Assembly: GCA_029782355.1 (NCBI GenBank)
Contig: JAKOUY010000040.1
Coordinates: forward strand, 62,001 to 126,000
Source: Actinomycetes bacterium
Lineage (GTDB): Bacteria > Actinomycetota > Acidimicrobiia > Acidimicrobiales > Ilumatobacteraceae
Length of the DNA stretch: 64,000 nucleotides
Reading direction: 5' to 3'
Of this stretch, positions 26,477 through 27,878 are shown piece after piece. Every line of letters begins with the position of its first letter. Position 1 is the first letter of the stretch. Under the pieces are notes generated by a model. The model searched no databases and had not been told where the DNA came from. It worked only from the letters and a program-made list of their open reading frames with translations. Made by a program: the position numbers and the translations under genes.

Positions 26477-27265
26477 TCAGCTCACGGCCGTGCCGAACAG
26501 CGCTCCGACGCCCGAGGTGACCGCCGCGGCCAGCACGACGATGGCCAGCTGGCGCAGTGCCCCGGTCCACGCCGAGCGCCCGGCCGAGCGGCTGACCCAC
26601 CCACCGACCGCCGCGCTGGCCAGGGCGGTCAGCACGATCGAGACGGTCACGGCGACGGCCCCGTGCGCCAGGAACCACGGCACCAGCGGGACCGCGGCCC
26701 CGGCGGCGAACAGGCACAGCGAGCTGAGCGCGGCGACGCGGGGTGAGCCGAGCTCGGCCGGGTTGACGCCGAACACGGTCTGTGCGGTGAAGTCGAGGAA
26801 GCTGACGTGATCGAGGGGGAGCTCGGTGGCCACCCGCCGGGCGGTCTCCCGGGTGAACCCGGTGCCGACCAGGCGGTCGGTCAGCGTGTCGAGGACCAGC
26901 CGTGGGTTGCGCCGGACCAGGGCGCGCAGCTCGCCGAGCACACCCTGGAACAGCTCGACCTGGCTGCGCACGCTGACCCATTCGCCGACCGCCATCGAGA
27001 CCGCCCCGGCGATCAGGCTGGCGAAGCCGGCGATGCGCACCGCCGAGGCACTGCCGTTCGCCGCGGCGATGCCGAGGATCAGGCAGATGTTGGTGACCAG
27101 GCCGTCGTTGACGCCCAGCACCGCGGCGCGAGCGCCGCCGCGCGAGACGGCATCGGCACGCTGGCGCAGTTCGGCCGCGTCGCGCCCGCCGTCGGTGACG
27201 GTGGGGTCGATCGGCTCGGTGTACGCGGCCCGCGGCGGCGCGATGGGGGCTCCTTGATCGGTCAG
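26477..27265 (-). CDS. VIT1/CCC1-family iron/manganese transporter
   Basis: This is a membrane protein of the VIT1/CCC1 family, which moves Fe2+ or Mn2+. The first membrane segment contains VLGVNDGLVTNICLILGIAAA, followed by AVSMAVGEWVSVRSQVEL. A cytoplasmic domain with ETARRVATELPLD comes next and three hydrophobic helices lie near the C-terminus. The reading frame is protein-like back to TDQGAPIAP, yet no ATG, GTG or TTG lies in frame between there and GTG 27121. I take CTG 27265 as a possible start because it would give MTDQGAP and overlaps the upstream peroxiredoxin stop. GTG 27121 would cut off about 48 residues before helix 1. Start uncertain, family fairly sure. Confidence 0.75.
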   Translation of the reverse strand: MTDQGAPIAPPRAAYTEPIDPTVTDGGRDAAELRQRADAVSRGGARAAVLGVNDGLVTNICLILGIAAANGSASAVRIAGFASLIAGAVSMAVGEWVSVRSQVELFQGVLGELRALVRRNPRLVLDTLTDRLVGTGFTRETARRVATELPLDHVSFLDFTAQTVFGVNPAELGSPRVAALSSLCLFAAGAAVPLVPWFLAHGAVAVTVSIVLTALASAAVGGWVSRSAGRSAWTGALRQLAIVVLAAAVTSGVGALFGTAVS

Positions 27266-27723
27266 CGTGAGGCCGCCTCGATGTCGGCGAGCACCGCCGC
27301 GGCATGACCGGCGACGTCGGTGACGTCGTAGGTGGCGCGGATGACCCCGTCCGGATCGATCAGGTAACTGTGCCGCTTGGGGAAGTCCTTGAACTTCTCG
27401 TCGGGGTCGCGGACCACTCCATAGGCCGCGCCGACCTGCCGGTCGACATCGCTCAGCAGGTGGAACGGGAAGCGTTGGGAGGTGGCGAACTCGAGGTTCT
27501 CGGCGGGGGTGTCGAACGAGGCCCCGAGGACGACGGCGTTGGCCGCCTGGTACGCGTCGGCGCTGTCACGCAGCGCCTGGCCCTGGATCGTTCAACCAGG
27601 CGTCGATGCTTTCGGATACCACCACAGCAGCACCCAGTGGCCGCGCAGGTCGGCGAGGTGCACCGGGTTGCCGTGTTCGTCGGGCAGGGTGAAGTCGGGT
27701 GCGGTCGTGCCGGGATGGAGCAT
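27262..27723 (-). CDS. BCP-type peroxiredoxin with in-frame TGA at the peroxidatic Cys (probable selenoprotein)
   Basis: Read through one TGA, this frame gives a 153-residue thiol peroxidase of the AhpC-TSA/BCP group. It has a thioredoxin-fold start (TAPDFTLPDEHGNPVHLADL), WWYPKASTPG, then codon 44 = TGA (27594-27592), then TIQGQALRDSADAYQ and SQRFPFHLLSDVDRQVGAAYGV. The family active site is YPKxxTPGCT, so TGA falls exactly on the peroxidatic Cys. The 110 codons after it are intact and family-like. There is no other Cys, so no resolving Cys, implying a one-Sec mechanism. A hairpin fitting a bacterial SECIS follows (27559-27577). Conceptual start is ATG 27723. A nonsense mutation is the alternative, but less likely given the position and hairpin. 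Confidence 0.85.
27559..27594 (-). promoter_or_regulatory. candidate bacterial SECIS element after UGA codon
   Basis: On the minus strand the UGA (27594-27592) is followed by 14 bases, then GGCGCUG, loop CGUGA and CAGCGCC (27577-27559). This is a perfect 7-bp stem with a 5-base apical loop carrying G at its second position. The loop lies 22-26 bases after UGA. That matches the known bacterial SECIS layout (apical loop roughly 16-37 bases downstream, G near the start of the loop). It lies inside the coding region, as bacterial SECIS elements do. Confidence 0.75.
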
Positions 27724-27788: not shown

Positions 27789-27878
27789 ATGGGATCGTTG
27801 ATCAAGAAGCGCCGCAAGCGGATGCGCAAGAAGAAGCACAAGAAGATGCTCCGCCGGACGCGCCACCAGCGCCGCTAG
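27789..27878 (+). CDS. 29-residue basic ribosomal protein bS22 (AURKAIP1/COX24-like)
   Basis: A 29-residue peptide starting MGSLIKKRRKRMRKKKHKK and ending MLRRTRHQRR closely matches the tiny actinobacterial 30S protein bS22 described from the mycobacterial ribosome. That protein begins MGSVIKKRRKRM and has the AURKAIP1/COX24 motif. More than half of the residues are Lys or Arg. A -10-like TAGCGT lies about 10 bases upstream of the ATG, suggesting a very short or absent leader. It is divergent from the peroxiredoxin gene, with 65 bases between starts. Genes this short are often missed. Confidence 0.9.
   Translation: MGSLIKKRRKRMRKKKHKKMLRRTRHQRR

Follow-up and report, generated by a model that had tools for sequence, protein, structure and literature searches.

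Peroxiredoxins bearing selenocysteine (Sec) are established bacterial proteins, as the earlier note on this DNA had held, and form the selenoprotein family Peroxiredoxin (Prx), which corresponds to COG1225 (Bcp) and carries the motif TxxU (PMC9312934); the family is also covered in PMC1088965, PMC1794560 and PMC13188914. A 2016 survey listed 91 Sec-peroxiredoxin genes in 78 organisms (PMC5029168), and 43 were reported from a Sargasso Sea set (PMC1088965). The actinobacterial entry with a Sec-peroxiredoxin in the accessible part of PMC1794560 is Symbiobacterium. The strings Ilumatobacter and Acidimicrobi are absent from the main text of PMC5029168, and searches limited to open-licence papers showed, among the titles listed, no description of this actinomycete branch or of the present gene. 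The gene lies in a 64-kb stretch of DNA (the window, meaning the whole stretch analysed) and resembles the known COG1225/TxxU proteins in being of the Bcp type, with a predicted Sec at the peroxidatic site and a putative SECIS element just past the UGA; it is placed among them by its AhpC-TSA domain and PxxxTxxU motif, the known members being compared by description. Its membership of a known kind of selenoprotein is well supported, and its addition to that kind is a well-defined actinomycete branch, distinguished by the lack of a resolving Cys in 22 of 23 genes and by a VIT1-family gene that is often adjacent.

Three other described systems serve to locate the protein more closely. Canonical PrxQ/BCP (model NF006960; C. 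glutamicum PrxQ) has the same fold, size and P-x3-T-x-x-C motif, but the window gene would replace its peroxidatic Cys by Sec and lacks the resolving Cys five residues further on, the residue by which atypical 2-Cys PrxQ/BCP enzymes are recognized. The score against NF006960 is 115 bits, below the cut-off of 140, and even so this is the best of the ten NCBIfam models matching the protein, none of which reaches its cut-off. PrxU (NCBIfam NF040737) belongs to the same peroxiredoxin superfamily and stands further away, scoring 53 bits where the cut-off is 270. Mycobacterium tuberculosis AhpE (structures 1xxu, 4x0x and 5id2) shares the fold (TM 0.81–0.87) and a single catalytic chalcogen residue, but has Cys in place of Sec and about 32% identity to the window protein; its designation as a 1-Cys enzyme is taken from the titles of the structure entries.

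The gene very probably encodes a BCP/PrxQ-type selenocysteine peroxiredoxin in which a hairpin would direct Sec insertion at codon 44, a reading drawn from sequence comparison and anticipated in the earlier note; it is supported by TGA in 22 relatives, a hairpin within published bSECIS constraints and a complete set of machinery genes. Coordinates are collected in the table below. The frame runs on the minus strand, left unstated in the earlier note, from an ATG at 27723 to a terminal TGA at 27264-27262, with 43 codons preceding the UGA and 109, rather than the 110 previously counted, following it. Its conceptual product (MLHPG...WWYPKASTPG-U-TIQGQ...) contains the sequence PKASTPGU, that is, P-KAS-T-PG-U or PxxxTxxU, and matches the AhpC-TSA domain (Pfam PF00578) with an E value of 3e-35 and 121 bits (cut-off 26), so that translation and domain search both confirm the proposed peroxiredoxin frame with TGA at codon 44. 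No Cys occurs elsewhere in the translated protein, position 44 being the only such site, as had been claimed. The prediction that standard annotation would mishandle the gene holds in that a plain ORF caller misses it, the ORF listing of the window containing no ORF of at least 80 aa in this frame; together with the sub-threshold NCBIfam scores, this means that routine annotation may split the gene or overlook it.

Table. Coordinates of the features discussed (plain numbers are window positions; the last two rows are given as genome:contig:positions in the genome from which the window derives).
Feature	Position	Strand	Description
Sec-peroxiredoxin gene (BCP/PrxQ type)	27262..27723	minus	153 codons + stop; UGA codon 44 taken as selenocysteine
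In-frame TGA, codon 44	27592..27594	minus	peroxidatic position of PxxxTxxU motif
Bacterial SECIS hairpin (predicted), GGCGCUG-CGUGA-CAGCGCC	27559..27577	minus	7-bp perfect stem, 5-nt loop
VIT1-family gene	26477..27256	minus	Pfam VIT1, E 2.5e-50; 5' end not fixed; downstream of peroxiredoxin
FdhA match (L121)	G000:C19:321819-323846		
SelD match	G000:C1:204945-205853		

The in-frame TGA is a shared property of a group of orthologues. Together with 22 genes that are 50–69% identical to it, the window gene makes up a set of 23 distinct genes, all with TGA at codon 44 and an intact frame downstream. A search of 150 family genomes, including the window's own, returned 16 orthologues at E < 1e-54, clearly set off from the next match at 5e-26; TGA occupies the same codon in 13 of these, and TGC in the other three (genomes G112, G123 and G090). 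A second collection (genome_contigs) contributed three more TGA genes (L045, L046 and L048), loci L041, L042, L043, L044 and L047 being left out of all counts as duplicates of L012, L021, L023, L020 and L018, respectively. The phylum sample of 396 genomes yielded 15 matches at E 1e-28 or better, namely the window's own gene, seven with TGA and seven with Cys, and the seven TGA genes come from other families (f47, f50 and f55) and are 50–56% identical to the window gene. Records of the named relatives are metagenome-assembled genomes entered as Ilumatobacteraceae, Ilumatobacter, Acidimicrobiales, Acidimicrobiia, Actinomycetes or actinobacterium. The alignment of relatives suggested earlier thus shows TGA in 22 further genes and TGC at codon 44 in the close relatives L021, L023 and L025 as well as in the more distant L112. 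Ordinary PrxQ genes, sampled as 14 loci (L027–L040) from a larger set of weaker family matches, have TGC or TGT at the peroxidatic codon. Two apparent further in-frame TGA genes, at G003:C1:11817 and G043:C452:3674, proved to be ordinary Cys PrxQ genes whose TGA is the normal stop.

The perfect 7-bp hairpin with its 5-base loop, reported earlier as beginning 14 bases past the UGA, was reproduced on the minus strand. Published bSECIS constraints comprise a loop of 3–9 nt, a stem of 4–16 bp, a G within the first two loop positions, a spacing of 16–37 nt and a minimum free energy of at most -7.5 (PMC13188914), and the window hairpin satisfies them with its 7-bp stem, CGUGA loop, spacing of 21 nt from UGA to loop and -12.1 kcal/mol. 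Taken singly it is only moderately better than chance. Compared with dinucleotide shuffles its z score varies with the stretch chosen for folding (-0.38, -2.31 or -0.71); out of 200 shuffles each, 62 fold as well for a 55-nt stretch, 6 for one of 51 nt and 52 for one of 81 nt. Comparison with synonymous recodings gave p = 0.03 in one test and 0.087 in another.

Across the relatives the picture is far more consistent. The scoring considered hairpins whose loop begins between 18 and 26 nt past the UGA and tolerated no more than a single bulge or mismatch. In every one of the 23 TGA genes the top-scoring hairpin has its loop at +22, with a 7-bp stem except in L107 (6 bp) and L012 (6 bp plus one mismatch), and with a single stem bulge in L015, L016, L022 and L045. 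A score of at least 12 was reached by 18 of the 23, where synonymous recodings of these proteins would lead one to expect 2.8, so that a chance hairpin is very unlikely; the corresponding figures are 1 of 10 (0.7 expected) for the other Cys homologues, the one being L114 with its loop at +25, and 0 of 14 (1.1 expected) for ordinary PrxQ. Separation is softer at a score of at least 11 with bulges allowed (22/23 TGA genes; 1/10 and 3/14 Cys genes), and the ordinary Cys PrxQ L027 has a bulged hairpin with its loop at +22, the same place as in the TGA genes. The strict, bulge-free form of the published constraints admits 17 of the 23 TGA genes, each of them at spacing 21, compared with none of the 24 Cys genes at this spacing and seven of them at another. 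Six TGA genes thus fail the strict form, and five TGA genes need a stem bulge or mismatch. Folding energies relative to synonymous recodings average z = -1.21 in the TGA group (p < 0.05 in 4/23) and -0.15 in the ten Cys homologues (p < 0.05 in 0/10), and the combined p of 3e-6 is no true probability, since the genes are related. Eighteen stems are free of bulges. In these, G-C and C-G replace each other at pairs 1, 4 and 5, and pair 3 is found as C-G, U-A or U-G; their loops are 5 nt long in seven, 6 nt in three and 7 nt in eight, with the 3' arm shifting to match. Within the loop, Arg is encoded by CGT in 22 of 23 TGA genes.

All four genes of the Sec machinery, for which a genome-wide check had been proposed, are present in the window's own genome. 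The tRNA-Sec lies on contig 7 (65.6 bits, over the cut-off; SeC(tca) according to ARAGORN), selB (263.9 bits) adjoins selA (369 bits) on contig 4, both over cut-off, and selD is on contig 1 (329 bits). In line with the note's remark that none is seen in the window, the selA, selB and selD matches sit on other contigs, and a search of the 64-kb window for tRNA-Sec found none; neither selA nor selB was seen by eye among ORFs of at least 250 aa in the 20 kb around tRNA-Sec (L009). Each of the 20 TGA-bearing genomes covered by the machinery counts (13 of the family and 7 others, those of L045, L046 and L048 being left out) has selA or selB over cut-off. Individually, selA is found in 19 (12/13 family, 7/7 others), the exception G089 having selB, and tRNA-Sec in 14 (11/13 family, 3/7 others), while all 13 family genomes have both selB and selD over cut-off. 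The six in which the search found no tRNA-Sec are G023, G067, G437, G330, G282 and G407, of which G330 is 94% complete. Sec machinery is widespread in the family in any case, with selA over cut-off in 112 of 150 genomes, and its presence therefore discriminates little. Indeed, the three family genomes with TGC at codon 44 retain tRNA-Sec, selA, selB and selD, so that loss of the machinery does not explain their Cys; among the seven phylum genomes with a Cys match, selA occurs in three and tRNA-Sec in four.

The codon, the hairpin and the machinery genes can be read off directly, and from them it may be envisaged that SelB carrying Sec-tRNA(UCA) binds the hairpin just past codon 44 and so brings about insertion of selenocysteine there. 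In keeping with what is known of the family, the selenolate at position 44, held in the PxxxTxxU pocket, would attack peroxide and become a selenenic acid. Across the 31 rows, Sec and Cys together, T41, G43 and R117 never vary. An AlphaFold model (31-row alignment, TGA read as Cys) has a mean pLDDT of 98.1 and places position 44 near the start of helix 42-53; among solved structures its closest matches are Bcp/PrxQ proteins, and M. tuberculosis AhpE appears from rank 16. Cys49, the resolving Cys of canonical PrxQ, is present in each of the 14 ordinary PrxQ sampled from the family, in a single Sec gene of 23 (L045) and in 5 of 10 other Cys homologues, and since the three nearest Cys relatives also lack it, its loss is not tied to Sec alone. 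Without Cys49 or any other Cys the selenenic acid could not form an internal selenenylsulfide. In C. glutamicum PrxQ, replacement of the resolving Cys abolishes nearly all thioredoxin-dependent activity (PMC5811025). From the missing residue and this dependence of the C. glutamicum enzyme on its own, we infer a 1-Sec cycle involving an outside thiol. The enzyme is thus most likely a 1-Sec peroxidase recycled in this way, and reduction of the selenenic acid would, on balance, probably fall to an outside thiol such as mycothiol with mycoredoxin, or to thioredoxin directly.

Two explanations would dispense with Sec altogether. The TGA might be a Cys codon, TGC or TGT, that has mutated in a pseudogene or been misread, and the Cys homologues do bear just these codons at this place; yet the identical TGA is shared by 23 distinct genes in separate genomes, the frames beyond it have neither decayed nor shifted, and selection persists past the stop, all of which makes this account extremely improbable. 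Purifying selection after the UGA is seen in close pairs, nine of which (eight of them Sec pairs) have Ka/Ks of 0.11–0.49 over codons 45-105. Ka/Ks of the last codons is as high as 0.71 (L011/L013), and the infinite value for the tail of L106/L110 is attributed to a one-residue gap in L110. These close pairs were used because pN/pS over all 253 Sec pairs (medians 0.43 upstream and 0.62 downstream, with window-gene pairs reaching 1.23 downstream) is uninformative, synonymous sites being probably near saturation. Alternatively, an ordinary tRNA (Cys, Trp or suppressor) might decode the UGA independently of the Sec machinery, the hairpin being a by-product of coding. The modest significance of the window hairpin by itself, the six TGA genomes in which tRNA-Sec was not found and the Cys genes that reach a score of 11 once bulges are allowed would all fit such read-through. 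It is nevertheless very doubtful in view of the two-sided changes in the stem, the near-constant CGT codon in the loop, the absence of strict hairpins at spacing 21 from the 24 Cys genes and the occurrence of selA or selB in every TGA genome searched.

A further possibility accepts Sec and concerns the chemistry, namely that the protein uses a resolving Cys on another protein, or acts as a thiol:disulfide oxidoreductase, instead of working as a 1-Sec peroxidase. The absence of its own resolving Cys and the behaviour of the C. glutamicum mutant would suit this reading as well. It appears unlikely, however, given the invariant Thr41 and Arg117, a Pro37 kept in 21 of 23 Sec genes (missing in L108 and L110), and closest folds that are peroxidases, 1-Cys AhpE among them.

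In the tree, one strongly supported clade (100/100) unites the Sec rows with four rows bearing Cys (L021, L023, L025 and L112) and stands apart from 20 Cys PrxQ rows. The four Cys rows are placed inside the Sec clade, L112 on a long branch, and the topology needs three Sec/Cys changes, two of them forced by the branches starred in the tree. Sec-to-Cys reversion is not taken as proven by these nested rows, since a constraint holding all Sec rows together survives the AU test (p 0.17, or 0.236 without L112 and L116). The branch supplies natural counterparts of one enzyme with Sec and with Cys, the closest three Cys forms coming from genomes that keep the Sec machinery, and hence a way to ask what selenium buys a peroxidase devoid of a resolving Cys.

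Why the Sec trait persists in this lineage is a related matter. According to a 2006 survey, every selenoproteome includes FdhA or SelD (PMC1794560). In the window's own genome, neither the SelD match nor any of five formate dehydrogenase alpha matches (one over cut-off) contains an in-frame TGA, which makes redox selenoproteins candidates for keeping the trait. The stretch ARVCHSPT in the FdhA match is presumably the formate dehydrogenase active site with Cys. In one relative (G037), SelD (L103, G037:C1:4687734-4688651) does carry a TGA in frame, which makes it a possible selenoprotein too. Outside the window, the own genome holds a second likely selenoprotein (G000:C14:36357-36920, L130/L141), with a TlpA/ResA-like thioredoxin fold, the sequence WFWAPT-U-GVC (UxxC) and a lipobox recognized by eye. 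No NCBIfam model scores over cut-off for it; an in-frame TGA occurs in 42 of the 49 matches listed and in 41 of 61 family genomes, one match also having a TAA, and in all ten loci fetched the TGA stands at the same UxxC place. A broader scenario, offered tentatively and more doubtful than probable, is that an actinomycete PrxQ lineage, once 2-Cys, took up Sec and lost its resolving Cys to become a 1-Sec peroxidase relying on a new external reductant, and that thiol-redox selenoproteins (the Sec-peroxiredoxin and the TlpA-like UxxC protein), not formate dehydrogenase or SelD, keep the Sec trait in the lineage.

Divergent from the peroxiredoxin gene, at 27789-27878 on the plus strand, the window could encode a very basic peptide of 29 residues, MGSLIKKRRKRMRKKKHKKMLRRTRHQRR, which resembles a small ribosomal protein of the AURKAIP1/bS22 type; tblastn at E 1e-3 did not find it in the other 25 loci whose gene neighbourhoods were compared. 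On the opposite side, the VIT1-family gene is possibly co-transcribed with the Sec-peroxiredoxin gene. Such a gene was not found in 12 of the 23 TGA loci, two of them (L106 and L110) offering little sequence downstream of the peroxiredoxin, and it directly follows the peroxiredoxin in the other 11 and in all three of the nearest Cys loci, an arrangement that hints faintly at a role in metal-linked peroxide defence.
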